Assembly: GCA_905479115.1 (NCBI GenBank)
Contig: CAJQLF010000028.1
Location: 1 to 42,894 of the forward strand
DNA from: an uncultured Flavobacteriales bacterium
GTDB taxonomy: Bacteria > Bacteroidota > Bacteroidia > Flavobacteriales_D > Sanyastnellaceae
Reading direction: 5' to 3'
Length of the DNA stretch: 42,894 nucleotides
Shown piece after piece: positions 9,920 to 18,627 of the stretch. A model generated the notes under the pieces. That model was not told the origin of the DNA and searched no databases. It saw only the letters and a program-made list of their open reading frames with translations. Positions within the stretch are counted from its first letter, which is position 1. Each line of letters opens with the position of its first letter. The position numbers were made by a program, and so were the translations under genes.

Positions 9920-10669
9920 TTAGAGCAGGTTGATGCGCTGAGCAAGCGCGTCTTTGTAGCTGCCGCCAACTGGAATTTCTTTTTCCATTCCCGCAATGGT
10001 AATCATCGAGTATTTGATGCTTTCAATGGCTTCAATGTTGACGATGTAGCTCCGGTGTACTCGCATAAAGTCCGGTCCGCTCAGCTTTGTTTCGACATCC
10101 TTCATGGTGGAATGGATTGTGTAGCTTTCGTTCGTGGTGTGGACTACGACATAGTCTTTCAGCGCCTCCACAAAAAGCAAATCGCTGTTCTTAACCCGAA
10201 TCAAGCGGCTTCGGTTTTTCACAAAAATGATGTCTGTGTCATCCTTGTGCTCCGCCAAACTTCTCAAAAAATCCGTCTCTTGACGCATTTCCAGCTCCTT
10301 GCCGTGCTTGTGCAGGGCCATTTCTACGGCCGTCTGGATATCAACATCCTTGAATGGCTTCAAAATGTATCCGTGTGGCTCGGCGAGTTTCGCGTCGTTC
10401 AGTGTGTTCTCGTCCGCATAAGCCGTCAAAAAGACGACGGGAATGTCGATGTTCCGCTTAATTTCTTCGGCGGCCGCAATCCCATTCATGTCGCCTTTGA
10501 TCATGATGTCCATGAGTGCTAAATCCGGCTTGTGTTTCATGGCCATGGAAATGGCGTCCTCACCGTTATCCGCAGAAGCCACAACGTTATAACCTAGGTT
10601 TCCTAAGCAACGTTCAATGTCCTTACGAACAATGCTTTCATCTTCTGTTACGAGAATATTTATGGGCAT
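9920..10669 (-). CDS. LytTR-family response regulator
   Basis: A 249-residue two-domain regulator. The receiver domain (1-120) has the acidic pocket (TEDE, 8-11), the phosphoacceptor Asp54 (LALMDIMIKG) and the conserved Lys104 (YILKPF). The C-terminal half (about 145-245) is a LytTR DNA-binding domain: FVKNRSRLIRVKNSDLLFVE, then YVVVHT, then FMRVHRSYIVN. Such proteins bind short direct repeats upstream of targets. It lies 24 nt downstream of the six-PAS histidine kinase on the same strand, so the two form a cognate pair. The next gene is the secreted DUF1028 protein. No LytTR target repeat could be picked out by eye. Confidence 0.93.
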   Translation of the reverse strand: MPINILVTEDESIVRKDIERCLGNLGYNVVASADNGEDAISMAMKHKPDLALMDIMIKGDMNGIAAAEEIKRNIDIPVVFLTAYADENTLNDAKLAEPHGYILKPFKDVDIQTAVEMALHKHGKELEMRQETDFLRSLAEHKDDTDIIFVKNRSRLIRVKNSDLLFVEALKDYVVVHTTNESYTIHSTMKDVETKLSGPDFMRVHRSYIVNIEAIESIKYSMITIAGMEKEIPVGGSYKDALAQRINLL

Positions 10670-10693: not shown

Positions 10694-13570
10694 CTAAAGC
10701 GTCACGGGGGTAAATCTAACCAAAAATGATGCCCCCGTCTCAATATCTAACGCCTTATCGCTCTGTTTGTTATCCACAACGAGCGCTCCGTCCAATTGGT
10801 CGGTTAAAGCTTGAACCAAATACACCCCCAAGCTCTCATTGGTTTCAATGTCAAAATTATCGGGCAAACCGACCCCGTTATCTGCGACCTCAATTTCCAG
10901 TTCGTCGCCTTTCTTTTCAACGCGCAAAAATATTTTTCCCGTTTCTCTTCCTTTGAAAGCGTATTTTAAACAATTAGAAACCAACTCATTAACTATTAAT
11001 CCACATGGGATCGCTTGTTTCAGATTGATGTAAATGTCGTCCAGCTGACTGGTCAATTCCACGCGAGCAGAAATGTTAGAATAGCTCTGGATCAGGTTCT
11101 GGGTTAGTCGTTCCAAATAATCCGCAAAACCAATGGAGCTAAAATCAGAATTTTGGTACAGGCTTTCGTGAATAAAGCTCATTGTCGAAATCCTGTTTTG
11201 GCTTTCCTCCAAAACATCTAACATCTTTTGGTCGTCCACAAACCGTCGCTGCAGGTTAAGCATGCTTGAGATGACCTGTAAGTTGTTCTTCACCCGATGA
11301 TGGACCTCTTGGAGTAAAACTTCCTTTTCCTTCAGTGCTTCACGAATCTTATTGTCGATCTCTTTTCGTTCTGTTATGTCGTACGCTATACAACTCAATT
11401 CCTCTGTTCCTTCTTCAAATACAACGGGGTTGACAAAGAGTTGGTACCACGCCACCTCTCCGGATTGCGTGACCAGCGGAAGTTCAAATTGCTGCTGGGT
11501 GCCCTGCGCTGCGCGGGAGAAAAGTCTGAATTGTCCCTGATAAAGGCTTTTTTCTGTGAAGCCTTTCAGGGTTTCTATAATGGGCGTACCAACTTCCGTG
11601 TCAAACCCGAACTGTTCTTTGAGTGTGTGTCTTAGGTTTTGATTAACCGATGTCACCCGAAGGTCTTTGTCGATGGTAAACATCAAGAGATAGCGCGTTG
11701 AGTTGAAAATCGATTCCAGTTTGGCAGATTTTTCCCTTGCATCACGCTGATAGGCTCTGACTTCAGAAACATTCGAGTAAATGCAACGCAACCCGATTAA
11801 GTCGCCTTGATTGGTTGTTTGTACTGAACCACCCCCCAACATCTTCAATATCGAACCGTTTTTGTTTCGAAAGTTTATTTCGTTGTTCTGGCCGGCCAAC
11901 AATTCCATCCAGTTCTCTTTGTTCTCGTTTGTTGGAGTTTCAATAACGTCTGGAATCAATACCGACTTCAGTTCTTTTGGTGAGTATCCCAGGGATTCAA
12001 AGAAAGCGGGGTTCGCGTATTCAAGCCCGCCTTTTGCGTTGACCTGAAAAACCAAGTCGCTCGCGTTTTCCAGAATATCCCGGTAGCGCTCATCGCTTCT
12101 TCTAAGTTCTTGCTCTGCAAAACGGATATCTGTGATGTCTCTCCCGACAAGTACATAGCCTGTGCCTTCCCCTTTTTCATTTTGTAAAGACGCAATCGAA
12201 ATCAACATCTGAAACACCTCTCCTGTCGATCGCTTTCCTGAAATTTCTCCCGCATAGTACCCTTGGCGATCCAAATCAGAGATAATGTTTTCTGCGTCCT
12301 CGGGGTTGCTCAAAAAATCAGCCGCAGTCATATCCTTTACATCGTCAGCGCTCATCCCAAACTCCACAGACGCTGCGTGATTGAATTGCAGAATGTTTCC
12401 TTTTACATCCAACGCTACAATCATATCAATGGAACTCTCAATGATGGATCGATTAAAGCGCTCGGCACCTTCTAACTGCTTTTGGGTTTCCCGGTGCTGC
12501 AGAATTTCCTCCTTCAACAAAACGTTCGCCTCTTCGGCTGATGTTCGCTTCAGTTGTTCACGGACCAATTGCATCTGCGTCGATAGGTCGTTCATTGTAA
12601 TTTGAACGGCCGGTTGATTATCAAAAAAGGAAAGGACCATTTGAACCCCCACCTCTTTTAATTGCTTGTCCATCATATTCACCTGCACTTCCAAGTAGGT
12701 AGTTTTCTCTCCGTTGAGAATTCGATCGATGTCTTCTTGAATTGGGGAGCGATCAGACGGTGCAAAAAACTGAATAACCTCTTGGTCAAACACCTCCTCT
12801 TCCTCTATGCCTAAAATTTCCAAACCCGCTTGATTTGCATACCGTACGCGGCCATCCACCGCTAAAAGCAACCCAAACGGATTGGTCTCCACAAGCAACC
12901 TGAACCGCTCTTTGGTTTGCAGAAGGTCTTTTGAAATTTTTCTCTTATCTGTGATATCCAGAAGGGCCAGGGCTTTGAAGCCCGACTCCTTGTCTACGAT
13001 CGTCATTTTTCCCTCCACTACGATTGGTTTGCCACCCGCGTTGACAAATTCAAATTCCAAAACCTCATCCAAACGGCTCATCAAGCGCTTCCAATTGCGC
13101 TCTCCTAATTGGGCTTCCCAGTCGATTTCACCTAATTCCTGGGCTGTGTTGACACCCATTGTAATCCACATCTGCGCATTTGAGTCAACCGCTTTGTTGT
13201 TGTTGATGAGAGCTAGCCCTTCGATGGTCCCATTGGCTAAACCCGTGTAAAGCGTCTTATTATATCTCAGCGCAGTGGCCAGCTCATCCGCATCTCGCAC
13301 GTCCTTAAAAACCGCATAATAATAGCCATTCAGACAACCTGAATGCACTGTGTGCGGTTTTTCGTTGTTTGATACGTTCCAAGTAAATGGCTCATGGCTA
13401 CTCGCTGCAATGATCCGTTCCCCTGCTTCTTTTGCCCGCTCTATTTCGCTTTCAGAAAGCATTTGCCTTCCTGCATTGTTCACGTAAACCGCCGCTCCAT
13501 CCTTGTCAAATACCAAAGCAGCATCCGTGCATACATCTATCCAATTTGCAATATGGGGATCAAGTTTCAT
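10694..13570 (-). CDS. Soluble multi-PAS histidine kinase (HisKA_2/HWE-like)
   Basis: A 958-residue kinase without a recognisable membrane segment, so it is probably cytosolic. The sensor part holds about six PAS-like modules, near residues 10-95, 105-207, 220-330, 370-485, 493-605 and 615-735; several end in the usual DITDxR/DITERK motif (205-210, 478-483, 731-736). A short coiled coil (335-370) splits the array. The transmitter starts with EVHHRVKNNLQV (His757/758 as phosphoacceptor), the HisKA_2 signature, followed by a HATPase domain (about 855-955; NELVSN as N box, DNGVGLP as G1). It sits between the MORN protein (15-nt gap) and its LytTR partner. The signal is unknown; PAS domains could bind haem, flavin or small metabolites. 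Confidence 0.92.
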   Translation of the reverse strand: MKLDPHIANWIDVCTDAALVFDKDGAAVYVNNAGRQMLSESEIERAKEAGERIIAASSHEPFTWNVSNNEKPHTVHSGCLNGYYYAVFKDVRDADELATALRYNKTLYTGLANGTIEGLALINNNKAVDSNAQMWITMGVNTAQELGEIDWEAQLGERNWKRLMSRLDEVLEFEFVNAGGKPIVVEGKMTIVDKESGFKALALLDITDKRKISKDLLQTKERFRLLVETNPFGLLLAVDGRVRYANQAGLEILGIEEEEVFDQEVIQFFAPSDRSPIQEDIDRILNGEKTTYLEVQVNMMDKQLKEVGVQMVLSFFDNQPAVQITMNDLSTQMQLVREQLKRTSAEEANVLLKEEILQHRETQKQLEGAERFNRSIIESSIDMIVALDVKGNILQFNHAASVEFGMSADDVKDMTAADFLSNPEDAENIISDLDRQGYYAGEISGKRSTGEVFQMLISIASLQNEKGEGTGYVLVGRDITDIRFAEQELRRSDERYRDILENASDLVFQVNAKGGLEYANPAFFESLGYSPKELKSVLIPDVIETPTNENKENWMELLAGQNNEINFRNKNGSILKMLGGGSVQTTNQGDLIGLRCIYSNVSEVRAYQRDAREKSAKLESIFNSTRYLLMFTIDKDLRVTSVNQNLRHTLKEQFGFDTEVGTPIIETLKGFTEKSLYQGQFRLFSRAAQGTQQQFELPLVTQSGEVAWYQLFVNPVVFEEGTEELSCIAYDITERKEIDNKIREALKEKEVLLQEVHHRVKNNLQVISSMLNLQRRFVDDQKMLDVLEESQNRISTMSFIHESLYQNSDFSSIGFADYLERLTQNLIQSYSNISARVELTSQLDDIYINLKQAIPCGLIVNELVSNCLKYAFKGRETGKIFLRVEKKGDELEIEVADNGVGLPDNFDIETNESLGVYLVQALTDQLDGALVVDNKQSDKALDIETGASFLVRFTPVTL

Positions 13571-13580
13571 GGCTCAGAGA

Positions 13581-13588
13581 CGAAGTTA
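13581..13588 (-). promoter_or_regulatory. TAACTTCG element before the multi-PAS kinase
   Basis: TAACTTCG on the minus strand overlaps the stop codon of the MORN gene and ends 10 nt before the kinase ATG. The same octamer followed by T recurs at 26527-26534 and 31718-31725, each time pointing at a start codon. It resembles the -7 element TAnnTTTG, so the kinase may have an internal promoter in addition to read-through from the MORN gene. Confidence 0.3.
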
Positions 13589-15154
13589 ATCGCCAGAAGG
13601 TTCAGTTTTTCGTGAAGCGCTGTCCTTGAGCCGTTGTCCGTCAATTCGAAACAGCTTTCCTCGCTTATAATCGAGGGTTTGAATCAATGTTTGGTTAGGT
13701 CCATAAAACATCCATTTTCCATCTCTTTCACCTAAATCATATCGTTCAACTCGAACCATTGAACCTTGTGTGTCTTTGTAAATGTGCTTTCCTATCGGAA
13801 CTCCACTTTCGTAAGAACCTTCAAATTGCTTTTGCCCATTCGGGTGAACATGCACCCAGTCACCGTCGCGTTCATCGTCTAAATAGTTTCCTTCTTCTTT
13901 GTGATCGTTGACATCCATAACCCAGGGTCCTTGCTTTAAACCGAAATCATACGTGCCCTGAACAATGAGTTTTCCATTGAAATCCCATTCACGAAAAAGA
14001 CCACTCGCTTTGCCATTGCGATACGACTCATCTCGATGAATGGATCCATTCAAATAATACCATTTCCAATTTCCGTGGTATGCGCCTTCCTTGTATTTCC
14101 CTTCTTGAACTAATTCGCCTGATTCTGCATAAAATTTCCACAGCCCTTCACGCTGTCCATTTTGATATCCTCCTTCCGATTTTAATTCGCCCGACGTATA
14201 AAATTGTTTCCACGATCCAACCCGCTTGCCTTGGGAGTTGGTAATGCCTTTTCCAATCATTACACCCGCGTCATACAGCGCTCCAGCTATAATTGTTCCC
14301 TCATTATCGTATTCAGAATAGGTACCTACTCGTTTTTCATTTTCATATGTTGCCCGCGATGCAACAGTCCCATTCTCATGAACGGTTGTCCGAACATCAA
14401 TTTCTACTGTTTCTTCTGCATCCGAAATCACCTCTCCATCCAGGTATTTCTCTACCCGATCAAGCTGACCCCATTGATCATAAAACCGAAACAACCCATT
14501 TCTTTTTCCTCCCTTCCAAACACCTTGCTCTAAAAGAATACCGGAATCCGACCACTCCATCCAGGTACCTGTTTTAGCGTTCTTTTCGTCGTAACGATTA
14601 ATTTTTTCAATGCCCCTTAAATATCCTTTCTGATAATCCAACAACGAAATAACTCGACCATCTAATGCAAATTCCCGCCCTTTACCATCCTCTAAATCAG
14701 CTCTGTAAGGAATTGACTTTCGTTTTTGTCCTGATTCATCATACAGATTTGTCCAACCTGATTTTTTATCTTCTTTAAACTGGATTTCCTCTTTTATCGT
14801 GCCATTAGAGAAATATACTCGCTCCCATCCTGATTTTTGATTTGCCACATATTCCACTGTTCTGACCTTTGTTTCCGTGGAATCAAAAAATACCCACTCA
14901 CCGTGAAGTAAAAAGTTCATTCGAGCACCTACACTCTTGATGTTTCCGTTGGTAAAATATGAGGTCCATGTTCCTTCTGGTTTTCCGTTAACTAAGCATC
15001 CTTCACTTGCTTTTTTTCCCGATGGAAAGGTATATACCGTCCAATCACAATTCACTGGAATTTCCTGCGCTGAGGCAAAAGATGTAATCAACACACACCA
15101 TAGTAATATTCTTTTATTCTTAGAAAATAAAGCAATAGTAGTAGGCTTGTTCAT
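13586..15154 (-). CDS. Exported MORN-like (YwqK-type) repeat protein
   Basis: From the ATG at 15154 the product is 522 residues and starts with a signal peptide (MNKPTTIALFSKNKRILLWC..., cleavage near ASA-Q). An ATG seven codons upstream is possible but fits a signal peptide less well. The rest is a chain of roughly fifteen imperfect 23-25-residue repeats of the form 'G.W..YY.NG.l..eg.Y..G...G', seen clearly in REGLWKFYAESGELVQEG and HGNWKWYYLNGSIH. This is the MORN-variant pattern common in Bacteroidota and also annotated 'YwqK antitoxin'; no toxin is nearby. It is the first gene of the kinase operon and a plausible periplasmic or surface accessory. The region looks more AT-rich than its neighbours. 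Confidence 0.8.
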   Translation of the reverse strand: MNKPTTIALFSKNKRILLWCVLITSFASAQEIPVNCDWTVYTFPSGKKASEGCLVNGKPEGTWTSYFTNGNIKSVGARMNFLLHGEWVFFDSTETKVRTVEYVANQKSGWERVYFSNGTIKEEIQFKEDKKSGWTNLYDESGQKRKSIPYRADLEDGKGREFALDGRVISLLDYQKGYLRGIEKINRYDEKNAKTGTWMEWSDSGILLEQGVWKGGKRNGLFRFYDQWGQLDRVEKYLDGEVISDAEETVEIDVRTTVHENGTVASRATYENEKRVGTYSEYDNEGTIIAGALYDAGVMIGKGITNSQGKRVGSWKQFYTSGELKSEGGYQNGQREGLWKFYAESGELVQEGKYKEGAYHGNWKWYYLNGSIHRDESYRNGKASGLFREWDFNGKLIVQGTYDFGLKQGPWVMDVNDHKEEGNYLDDERDGDWVHVHPNGQKQFEGSYESGVPIGKHIYKDTQGSMVRVERYDLGERDGKWMFYGPNQTLIQTLDYKRGKLFRIDGQRLKDSASRKTEPSGD

Positions 15155-15515
15155 TGTGTGTATAAGGAGAGGCAATGGATGTAGGAATTTTCAGTTTTTC
15201 ACAAGATTAAGGCAGGTTGCAAACAGCGTTTTTTAAAAGGTTAGACTGATTTTCAAGGCTTAAAGATGGTTTTAAACAAGCAGTGTATGAATGAATGGTC
15301 TGATAATTTATGATCAAATGATTGGTCGATAACCTTGGAAAATAGGCGCATAATATGGAGTAGAAATTAGACGGAAAAAGTTTGGAATTCTGATGACGTA
15401 ATTTGCTTGCACGAGAATTTCGAAATTGAAAGAGAAGTTGTTTTGAAGTTGTTCACCAAAGAAATGTGCTATCAACCATCTGCTTGTTAATTAACTTGCC
15501 AAAAAATAGGACACC
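15155..15515. other. Divergent intergenic region, no gene seen
   Basis: About 360 AT-rich bases between the MORN-repeat gene (minus) and the RpiB-peptidase fusion (plus). I see no conserved reading frame, RNA gene or terminator. It must contain promoters for both directions. Partial matches to the -7 element are TAATCTTG on the minus strand near 15200 and TAACTTGC on the plus strand at 15492-15499, which lies inside a TTAATTAA context and 16 nt before the fusion's start codon. Neither has a convincing -33 partner. Confidence 0.6.
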
Positions 15516-17477
15516 ATGCGTATATCAATTGGAGGAGATCATGCAGGGCCTGCATTGAAAAAGGCACTCACAAGGTACTTAGAATCGGAGGGTAATACGG
15601 TGGTCAATCGAGGCACAGATTCAACAGACAGTGTTGATTATCCGGATCATGCGCACGCGGTGGCTGCGGATGTTGAAGCGAAAGAAGTGGATTTCGGAAT
15701 TTTAATTTGTGGATCAGCCAACGGAGTGGCCATGTCAGCAAATAAGCATCAAGGGGTAAGAGCTGGTTTAGCTTGGAACCCAGAAGTTGCTCAACTTGTG
15801 AAGCAACACAACAATGCGAATGTTTTGTGCATTCCAGCTCGGTTTGTCTCGGAAGATGAGGGATTGGAAATTTTAAAAGCGTACATGAGCCAATCTTTTG
15901 AGGGCGGCAGGCATGAGCGCCGTGTAAGTAAAATATCCTGTGCACTTGCGGGACTGGCATTGATGTTTTTTTCTGTGAATGAAGGACTTGCTCAAGACAT
16001 CGTGATCCCTGAATCATACAGGTCTTCCATTTCTGCTTCGGATTTAGAAAACCACTTAATGGTTTTGGCGAGCGATGCGTTTGAAGGCCGGGAGACCGGT
16101 GAGCCGGGCGCAGACAAGGCCGCAGCCTACATTGCGAGTTACTTTAAATCAGTGGGAATTGCTCCATACGATGGAGATTCTTATTTCCAACCGGTAGAGC
16201 TGGTTCGATCTCAAATTGAAGGCGGATCAGCTTACGTTGGTGGTCAGGGGTTGGTTTTTTTAGATGACTACCTGTTTTATCCCGGCATCAAAGAGCCCGT
16301 GATGAACGACTTACCAATGATGGCTATTTCAGACGTGCAGGATTTGCAAGATGTCGACGTAAAAGGCATGGCGGTGGTTGTGCAAGCGGCAACGGAAGGC
16401 GGAGAAACCCGCTGGCAGACAGGATTGAATACTTTGCGCACAGCCGCATCAGAACAAGGCGCAGTTGCGGTGATCGTCGTAGGGGATGATTTATCCGTGG
16501 TACGGAGTAGAATGAAGCCTTGGTTGCTCCGTAAATCTTTGCGATTAAACAGGGAGGGCGAACCAGAAGAACGGGAAGGAACACGGATTCCAACCTTTAT
16601 GGTGGAGGCTCCAGCCACAGCGAATTGGTGGACCGGTTCAGCAATAAAGTCATGGAAGAGGTGGTCGAAAAAAACACAAAAAGGACAACCGCTTGCCCCT
16701 ACCCTGCTTCCACAAGCGACATGGAGTTTTGAGTTGTCAGCGACGGCTGACGATGTCACATCAAACAACGTATTGGGCTTTATTCCTGGGCGAGACTCCG
16801 TTTTGAGAGATGAGGTACTTGTGATTACAGCGCACTATGATCATGTAGGAATTATTGACGGGGAGATTCACAACGGAGCAGACGACGATGGTTCTGGTAC
16901 CGTCACCGTACTGGAGCTGGCCGAGGCGTTTATGAAAGCGGTTAAAGCGGGAGACGGTCCAAGGAGGAGTGTTTTATTGATGACGGTTGTTGGTGAGGAA
17001 AAGGGATTGTTGGGAAGTGAATGGTATGCGGACCACCCTGTTTGGCCTTTGGAGAACACAGTTGCAAACCTCAACATTGATATGATCGGCCGGGTGGATG
17101 AGAGCCACGCAGATGAAGAGCGTTACGTCTACCTGATCGGTTCAGATAAATTGTCAAGCGAACTGCACGAAATCAGCGAAACAGCCAACACAACATATAC
17201 CAAGCTCGCGCTGGATTACACATTCAACGCCCCTGATGACCCCAATCGCTTTTACTACCGGTCAGATCATTACAATTTTGCCAAGAACAACATACCGGTA
17301 ATCTTTTATTTCAGCGGTGTGCATGAGGATTATCACCGTCCAGGCGATGACCCGGAGAAAATTTTATACGATAAGACGGCTGAAATTGGTCAGCTTGTGT
17401 TTTGCACTGCCTGGCAATTAGCAAATCAAGACAAACGGATCGAAGTGGATCGAGTTAATGATTTTCCAGAGAAGTAA
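15516..17477 (+). CDS. Ribose-5-phosphate isomerase B fused to exported M28 peptidase
   Basis: One uninterrupted 653-codon frame. Residues 1-140 are a full RpiB (ribose-5-P/ribulose-5-P isomerase): GGDHAG (6-11), Cys65 in LICGSANG, His99 in KQHNNANVLC and the C-terminal FEGGRHERRVSKI. The Gly usually following CGS is Ala here. Residues 141-160 (SCALAGLALMFFSVNEGLAQ) look like a signal-peptide h-region and cleavage site. Residues 161-653 are a Zn peptidase of family M28 with a PA-like insert (about 230-370). Ligands are His440 (AHYDH), Asp456 (NGADDDGSG), Glu494/495, Asp522 (NIDMIG) and a late His (EDYHRPGDD). An internal ATG at 15885 could start the peptidase alone, using RpiB's basic tail as n-region. 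The frame overlaps the convergent lipoprotein gene by 23 nt. Confidence 0.9.
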   Translation: MRISIGGDHAGPALKKALTRYLESEGNTVVNRGTDSTDSVDYPDHAHAVAADVEAKEVDFGILICGSANGVAMSANKHQGVRAGLAWNPEVAQLVKQHNNANVLCIPARFVSEDEGLEILKAYMSQSFEGGRHERRVSKISCALAGLALMFFSVNEGLAQDIVIPESYRSSISASDLENHLMVLASDAFEGRETGEPGADKAAAYIASYFKSVGIAPYDGDSYFQPVELVRSQIEGGSAYVGGQGLVFLDDYLFYPGIKEPVMNDLPMMAISDVQDLQDVDVKGMAVVVQAATEGGETRWQTGLNTLRTAASEQGAVAVIVVGDDLSVVRSRMKPWLLRKSLRLNREGEPEEREGTRIPTFMVEAPATANWWTGSAIKSWKRWSKKTQKGQPLAPTLLPQATWSFELSATADDVTSNNVLGFIPGRDSVLRDEVLVITAHYDHVGIIDGEIHNGADDDGSGTVTVLELAEAFMKAVKAGDGPRRSVLLMTVVGEEKGLLGSEWYADHPVWPLENTVANLNIDMIGRVDESHADEERYVYLIGSDKLSSELHEISETANTTYTKLALDYTFNAPDDPNRFYYRSDHYNFAKNNIPVIFYFSGVHEDYHRPGDDPEKILYDKTAEIGQLVFCTAWQLANQDKRIEVDRVNDFPEK

Positions 17478-18627
17478 GCGGTGCTAAATAACGCTTAAAC
17501 ACGGCAACCTCCTGTTCATATAGAGTCCCTGTAGCAGGACCATTAAAACCAGAGTGCACATAAACGGTGCCATCCCTGTGAACGAATAACGTGGTTGGAA
17601 AACTGATCACCTGATCGAGAAACGGAAAGGCATCAGCGGCAACCTGCTTGTTCGCTTTGCCTCCAAGGTAAATAACCCAATCCATTTGCATTTCGGACTG
17701 AAAGGACTGAATGCGTTCATAGGCATTGAGCGGAGAATCGGGCCGTTCGAACGCCACGGAAAGCATCTGGTTTCCGTTGGGCCGCACAACCTCCTTAAGC
17801 AACCGGACTTCGTCCATGCAATTAGGGCACCATGAGCCAAGAATATCAACAACCAAAGGCATCTCACCATCTGGGACCAAAGAGACCTCCACCGGAGCAC
17901 CTCCCGGATCAACGACCCGCACAAAAAGAGAATCCAAAGGCACGGACAGCATGCGGATTGAATCCTTTTTTGGCCACGGGTCCGCCTTTTTTCCTTGCCA
18001 TGAGACTCGGTAGTGATTTCCACTGTAAAACGACCCCAACGTCCAGTTTCCATCTTCCCATATGCCTGTAATGCAGTACAAATGCGCCCCATCGAAGGTC
18101 TGCATGGTTAGAACACCCTCGAGAAACGTGCCGCTGAGATAGCGGTAGTCACCTGTTGGGGTGCGTATGGTGCCTTGGACACCGGCCTCTGTTGAAGTCA
18201 AGTCAAGTTGGGAGGTGGCAACGTCACTTTCATCGCCTTCACCAAACCAGACGTCCCACGTGCCTTCAATTGCAGTGGATTCAGACTGTGTCGTCCGAGT
18301 GGTTATTTCAAACGGAACTTGGTACGGGTATCCGTTTTTTTTAGGCCGCAAAGAATCAGTCCAAACACCTTGGTTTAACTGTGCCTCACCTGTGGCCAAT
18401 GATCCCCCAAAGACAGGAACCCGGTATACAGTGTCGTTGACGCGTTCCAACACCAAAACTTCTGCTCCGTTCTGGATTTGCCACGAATCTAGCTCGCGCT
18501 GAATGGGAAATACAGCACGTGTCGAGTCGTTCAGAACAAACTCAACGAACTGATTTTCAATGGGCTGACTACACGCCAAAAACAAGGAAAGGAATCCTAA
18601 TGCCCAGCAAAAATGAAGAGGTCGCAT
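17455..18627 (-). CDS. Thioredoxin-fold (TlpA-like) lipoprotein
   Basis: A 390-residue protein with a lipoprotein signal (MRPLHFCWALGFLSLFLAC, lipidated Cys19). A middle region of about 220 residues is beta-rich, as in Bacteroidota lipoproteins with an N-terminal DUF4369-like part. The C-terminal thioredoxin/TlpA domain carries the redox motif WCPNC (in VDILGSWCPNCMDE) and a cis-Pro loop (SFPTTLF). It should act in the periplasm as a thiol-disulfide reductase or in envelope protein folding. Its ATG overlaps the aldehyde dehydrogenase stop as TGATG, so the two are translationally coupled. Its 3' end overlaps the RpiB-M28 gene by 23 nt tail-to-tail. Confidence 0.85.
   Translation of the reverse strand: MRPLHFCWALGFLSLFLACSQPIENQFVEFVLNDSTRAVFPIQRELDSWQIQNGAEVLVLERVNDTVYRVPVFGGSLATGEAQLNQGVWTDSLRPKKNGYPYQVPFEITTRTTQSESTAIEGTWDVWFGEGDESDVATSQLDLTSTEAGVQGTIRTPTGDYRYLSGTFLEGVLTMQTFDGAHLYCITGIWEDGNWTLGSFYSGNHYRVSWQGKKADPWPKKDSIRMLSVPLDSLFVRVVDPGGAPVEVSLVPDGEMPLVVDILGSWCPNCMDEVRLLKEVVRPNGNQMLSVAFERPDSPLNAYERIQSFQSEMQMDWVIYLGGKANKQVAADAFPFLDQVISFPTTLFVHRDGTVYVHSGFNGPATGTLYEQEVAVFKRYLAPLTSLENH

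Follow-up and report, generated by a model that had tools for sequence, protein, structure and literature searches.

In-frame fusion of ribose-5-phosphate isomerase B and an M28 peptidase in a family of Flavobacteriales: a probable two-compartment polyprotein

The nearest bacterial case to the gene described here is FbcH of Bradyrhizobium, a cytochrome b/c1 polyprotein whose single open reading frame (ORF) carries an internal signal sequence and whose product is split into two subunits of a membrane complex. The M28 aminopeptidases YwaD (6hc6), 2ek8 and PaAP are exported, and sugar-phosphate isomerases of the RpiB/LacAB type (PF02502) end a few residues after a Lys-Ile (KI) pair. Cleavage of a single-pass protein that has a cytoplasmic part is described in an excerpt of PMC8844934 for two anti-sigma factors of Bacillus, RsiV and RsiP; signal peptidase cuts their outer part and RasP then cuts in the membrane, as a regulated signalling step. 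For Bacteroidetes, an excerpt of PMC5837995 reports glutamine at the +1 position of signal peptidase I substrates (71% on average) and its cyclisation to pyroglutamate; the traits of this Q-rule are a basic n-region, an uncharged core and a small residue followed by Gln.

The gene compared here with these systems lies in a stretch of 42,894 nucleotides from an uncultured Flavobacteriales bacterium (hereafter the window), where positions 15516-17477 of the forward strand form a single intact ORF of 653 codons from ATG, with zero internal stops. Its front part has the full-length domain and the conserved active-site columns of RpiB/LacAB isomerases and differs from them in continuing after KI into a putative signal-peptide core and a peptidase. 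Its rear part has the same M28 domain by sequence, and the same overall fold, as YwaD, 2ek8 and PaAP; unlike theirs, its predicted signal peptide is internal and would take the n-region from another enzyme. The likeness to FbcH, as judged from sequence, consists in one ORF, an apparent internal signal, two conserved domains and a proposed split into two proteins, whereas the front part here is a soluble enzyme of central metabolism. The likeness to RsiV and RsiP, as far as the excerpt of PMC8844934 goes, consists in the proposed cutting of a single-pass protein with a cytoplasmic part by signal peptidase; routine processing of two enzymes is what we propose here. The separate rpiB-M28 pair of other Bacteroidota consists of homologous genes in the same order and on the same strand, and it differs from the fused ORF in a stop shortly after KI and a peptidase start of its own. 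We found no report of an RpiB-peptidase fusion in the open-access literature. We consider it probable that this one gene gives a two-compartment polyprotein, with RpiB staying inside and the peptidase being translocated, and with signal peptidase I cutting between A159 and Q160. The features concerned are collected in Table 1.

Table 1. Features of the fused ORF, with window positions and the basis of each assignment
Feature	Position	Strand	Basis
RpiB (ribose-5-phosphate isomerase B) domain, residues 1-140	15516..15935	+	Pfam LacAB_rpiB, NCBIfam PRK05571.1, PDB 1o1x, invariant active-site columns
RpiB C-terminal basic tail GGRHERRVSKI, residues 130-140, proposed to be also the signal-peptide n-region	15903..15935	+	3-4 Lys/Arg in 44/44 fused proteins
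Internal in-frame ATG, residue 124, candidate internal start	15885..15887	+	Met in this column in 13/44 fused proteins; A+T-rich upstream, ordinary context score
Predicted signal-peptide core and c-region SCALAGLALMFFSVNEGLA, residues 141-159	15936..15992	+	0-1 charges and 16-20 residues across 44 fused proteins
Gln160, predicted +1 residue of signal peptidase I cleavage (between A159 and Q160)	15993..15995	+	[AGST]Q in 44/44 fused proteins; Bacteroidetes Q-rule (PMC5837995, excerpt)
Predicted mature peptidase, residues 160-653; M28 domain 418-628	15993..17474	+	Pfam Peptidase_M28; structure matches 2ek8, PaAP
Stop codon TAA of the fused ORF	17475..17477	+	ORF reading

Both domains score above the curated Pfam cut-offs. 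The Pfam LacAB_rpiB match spans residues 3-140 and positions 1-138 of the 138-position profile (E 1.6e-50; 171.1 bits against a cut-off of 24.7), and the Peptidase_M28 match has E 1.6e-37 (129.6 bits against a curated cut-off of 21.3). The subfamily models PRK05571.1 (NCBIfam) and TIGR00689.1 are also passed by the RpiB part, which falls slightly below the cut-off of the equivalog model TIGR01120 (135.6 against 138.65 bits). Solved relatives include RpiB 1o1x (E 5.7e-35) and the aminopeptidase YwaD 6hc6 (E 3.1e-13). An AlphaFold model, built on an alignment that took 39 of the 44 fused proteins described below, has a mean pLDDT of 84 and two mostly confident domains joined by one continuous helix (residues 132-159) of low confidence; the best solved matches to the whole model are the M28 aminopeptidases 2ek8 and PaAP.

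The flanking large ORFs, 13586-15175 and 17455-18627, are both on the opposite strand, which leaves the fused gene by itself in its orientation; its final 23 bases are shared, tail to tail, with the downstream ORF. This downstream ORF (minus strand) encodes 390 residues, for which Pfam gave nothing at E 0.001; judged by eye, its start resembles that of a lipoprotein, and SWCPNC resembles a thioredoxin motif. The upstream ORF (minus strand), with 529 residues, contains MORN_2 repeats (Pfam E 3.6e-32), and on visual inspection its start resembles a signal peptide with ASAQ at its end, which is consistent with the Q-rule. Farther upstream, 10694-13570 (minus strand) encodes a multi-PAS sensor kinase of 958 residues with HisKA_2, and the ORF beside it, 9920-10669, is response-regulator-like by eye.

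A first-pass annotation, made on the letters of the window, had read this ORF as an in-frame fusion of RpiB with an M28 peptidase running without a stop, and had suggested, as a check, a search of related genomes for fusions against adjacent separate genes. The fusion was borne out by the intact ORF, by the two Pfam domains and by this search, in which close relatives proved to be fused and two separate genes were found only in more distant ones. Of 114 genomes of the family, 43 (window included) have the fusion; they belong to six genera and give 44 distinct in-frame fused proteins, a count from which L113, a duplicate of the window locus, is left out. Among same-genus relatives, 18 of 21 have the fusion in frame and without a stop, and the fused counts elsewhere in the family are 10/11 in g3, 2/2 in g9, 1/1 in g13, 9/14 in g14 and 2/17 in g10. 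RpiB was not found at all in three same-genus genomes (G005, G009 and G019), and five of the 14 g14 genomes (G062, G152, G153, G157 and G158) gave no RpiB and no peptidase match at E 1e-100. These eight genomes are 63-91% complete and the absence of RpiB is likely due to assembly gaps; some of them may have truly lost it. In the g3 exception, G056, the M28 match lies on a contig that ends inside the gene. One g14 genome, G160, carries two fused copies (L157 and L186), probably through a binning mix-up; one of the copies, on a contig of 8.6 kb, is 83% identical to the window protein. All ten fused records that bear names are metagenome-assembled genomes (MAGs).

Outside the family, no fusion was listed in a sample of 395 genomes of the phylum, at least two of which are family members (E 1e-100), or in 285 other-family genomes of the order sample (E 1e-125); these are samples searched with strict limits, which rare or very divergent fusions could escape. 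The in-frame pairs listed outside the family (G521, G296, G162, G585, G109 and G572) all carry stops.

The same comparison bears on the view that the fusion is an artefact of sequencing or assembly, that is, two genes with a missed stop, or else a decaying gene. The window does come from a draft assembly of 69 contigs and more distant relatives do have two separate genes, but 44 distinct fused sequences from six genera and the selection on both domains described below make this view extremely improbable. The critical codon is TGT at codon 142, whose possible misreading the first-pass annotation had raised. At least 90% of 39 aligned fused proteins have Cys in this column, and many separate RpiBs end in KIACS-stop, with Cys at the same place; a missed stop or sequencing error at this codon is thus ruled out by the 44 fused homologues and by the Cys of the separate RpiBs.

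Both halves of the fused protein appear to be functional enzymes' domains under constraint. The columns of E. coli Asp9, His10, Cys66, Gly67, His99, Arg133 and Arg137, which we take to be the active-site residues of RpiB in both numbering and role, are invariant in 44/44 fused and 84/84 separate RpiBs, with two of 86 separate RpiBs left out as short. Some variation is seen in other RpiB columns tested, such as that of E. coli Thr68, where every fused protein has Ser. In the peptidase, H440, D442, D457, E494, E495 and D522 are invariant in 39 fused proteins and H607 is present in at least 90% of the 39, and this pattern of HxD, D, EE, D and H presumably marks the zinc-ligand and catalytic positions of M28. 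In 13 of 13 pairs compared, pN is smaller than pS in each of the two domains, although dS is saturated or cannot be defined for the more distant pairs; dN of the hydrophobic segment exceeds that of either domain in 12 of the 13. Judged from these substitution patterns, both domains are under purifying selection, and gene decay is ruled out by pN < pS together with the invariant active sites.

The window genome is 99.5% complete, and its single RpiB match is the fused one. RpiA gave no match in this genome and was found in 0 of the 72 genomes searched, 64 of which have RpiB. A second ribose-5-phosphate isomerase in the window genome was thus sought in the two known families and not found, and, barring an unrelated isomerase, this activity probably has no source other than the fused RpiB.

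We now consider the junction, where the argument for cleavage lies. All 44 fused proteins have GGRHxxR[VI]xKI, then 16-20 residues, then Gln. The motif contains four Lys/Arg residues in 40 of them and three in the other four; the segment has no charge in 40/44 and one charge in 4/44, including the window, where the charged residue is Glu (E156). The residue before the junction Gln is Ala in 33, Gly in 7, Ser in 3 and Thr in 1. As a control within the M28 parts of the same proteins, [AGST]Q occurs at an offset of 10-26 at 12.8% of positions, and with no more than one charge at 0.9%; the 44 fused rows are related, and their counts are not independent tests. The same signature is found in 73 of 83 separate M28 proteins. 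The Q-rule traits are thus present in 44/44, with one core charge in four, but the segment is not at the N-terminus of the ORF, since 140 RpiB residues precede it. The window genome has a gene of the Peptidase_S26 (signal peptidase I) family; a plant-type glutaminyl cyclase was sought and not found. The first-pass annotation had noticed a signal-peptide-like segment at residues 141-160; the segment is there, with its hydrophobic part being 141-159 and the predicted cut falling before Q160.

The first-pass annotation had also suggested that the basic end of RpiB, GGRHERRVSKI, doubles as the signal-peptide n-region. This suggestion is well supported by the alignments, because none of the 44 fused segments holds the Met followed by Lys or Arg that is typical of separate M28 starts, and the GGRHxxRVxKI tail stands in the place of that start. 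A membrane protein that is never cut, with the segment as a permanent signal anchor and with a single chain bearing RpiB on the inner side and the peptidase on the outer side, would have the same topology as the polyprotein, and the continuous helix 132-159 of the model, low in confidence as it is, would suit it. This reading is however improbable, because a segment of 16-20 residues including the c-region, which ends in [AGST]Q in 44/44, has the signature of cleaved substrates in Bacteroidetes, as the excerpt of PMC5837995 describes them. The first-pass annotation had offered a two-compartment membrane protein as one of two readings; the two compartments are favoured by the comparative data, and the cleavage step, to which the [AGST]Q of 44/44 points, was absent from it.

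Its other reading was that two products arise from one frame, an RpiB-containing chain and a pre-peptidase initiated at the ATG at 15885, so that the last RpiB codons would serve two proteins. This ATG sits 17 codons ahead of the core, and the 20 bases before it are 70% A+T, a value that only 2% of 284 internal ATGs reach; the column is Met in 13/44 fused RpiBs against 3/84 separate ones. Within 30 codons before the core, ATG, GTG or TTG is found in 39/44 fused genes (ATG in 26), 12 fused genes have ATG in the first four codons of the segment, and separate M28 genes do own their start. The start-context score at 15885 is nevertheless ordinary, being matched by 43% of internal ATGs, while 14% of 28 predicted gene starts score lower, and the column is Leu, Phe, Ile or Val in the other 31/44. 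Five of the 44 (L024, L025, L028, L158 and L162) lack ATG, GTG and TTG in the 30 codons before the core and keep the signature, and four of these five lack them also in the first four codons of the core. Unless start codons of other kinds are in use, internal initiation therefore cannot apply to the fused genes in general, and we regard it as an unlikely explanation of the fused frame; as an added route it may contribute to expression in some species. It should be mentioned that signal peptidase would process both precursors (57 and 71 kDa) to one and the same mature form, with a mass of about 54 kDa as estimated from length, so that a blot looking for 57 against 71 kDa products cannot separate the models.

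Under the polyprotein reading, which we prefer, the following course of events is predicted. RpiB would fold in the cytosol while leaving the ribosome, and the basic tail and the hydrophobic core would direct it to SecYEG, oriented N-in, C-out. Translocation would then carry the M28 part across the inner membrane, signal peptidase I would cut between A159 and Q160, and the released peptidase would be periplasmic or secreted, with an N-terminal Gln that is perhaps converted to pyroglutamate. RpiB would be left at the inner membrane with a hydrophobic tail of 19 residues, which a membrane protease of the site-2 type might later clip.

The separate-gene relatives are informative on how such a frame could have arisen. 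In 86 distinct loci, rpiB and the M28 gene are separate, close and on the same strand, and this arrangement, as neighbours that often overlap, occurs in many other Bacteroidota. Among 82 separate pairs with a defined start (three of the 86 without a found M28 start, and L141, being left out), 44 overlap and 61 are within 5 bases, the commonest overlaps being 4 bases (19 pairs) and 10 bases (12 pairs). The separate RpiB often ends in FEGGRHxRRVxKIACS-stop, and the separate peptidase usually starts with Met-Lys or Met-Arg and a signal peptide; in most separate genes of g10, the ATG of the peptidase overlaps the TGA that ends rpiB (TCATGA). Translational coupling is reported for gene pairs whose stop and start overlap (PMC6728339 and PMC10666635, each in excerpt). 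The pairing is common and not universal: among 80 contig loci, as far as the retrieved stretch of DNA reaches, both genes were nearby in 38 (10 of them fused), and 42 had the M28 gene without a nearby rpiB, some of these at contig ends. Such wide pairing suggests that the link between isomerase and peptidase is one of co-expression rather than of a joint reaction. The fusion probably originated from an overlapping rpiB-M28 pair in which an indel set the two frames in register, removing the stop and the second start, and an indel between overlapping frames would be the simplest route.

How often this happened was examined with a quick tree of 124 rows, 43 of them fused, from which L165 (truncated) and L150, L047, L054, L077 and L170 of the 86 separate rows were left out. 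The tree requires the state to change twice: a clade of 41 fused rows (SH-aLRT 97) has the g10 rows, 2 fused and 11 separate, as its sister group. A single fused clade was rejected (p-AU 4.3e-07; 64 rows of a quick tree, with the group named after the tree had been seen), which leaves either two fusions or a single one that was split again once. In g10, the separate genes overlap by 4 or 10 bases, as is found in other genera of the family; because these overlaps are the common ones, two gains are favoured, and we prefer two independent fusions on this sequence evidence. Two rows titled Chryseobacterium gleum (L058) and Verrucomicrobia bacterium (L092) fall inside Flavobacteriales lineages in this tree, and these MAG names look wrong.

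Taking the above together, we lean, somewhat more for than against, towards the wider view that signal peptidase I acts as the maturation protease by which an exported peptidase is separated from a cytosolic, central-metabolic enzyme, that the C-terminal, substrate-binding tail of the isomerase is reused as the n-region, that every RpiB molecule passes by the translocon and is at first tethered to the inner membrane, and that this arrangement arose in two lineages, or once with a later re-splitting. Export signals are usually regarded as N-terminal and cytosolic enzymes as free; here, across six genera, the one gene for what looks like the sole ribose-5-phosphate isomerase continues into an exported protein, of which the enzyme is the front half. 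This would be a caution for annotation pipelines that assign one compartment to each protein. If the proposal is true, signal peptidase would serve as the polyprotein protease for a house-keeping enzyme, and the family would provide a natural test of how large a folded cytosolic domain may precede a cleavable signal peptide. Living relatives allow one to follow how overlapping genes became a single frame.
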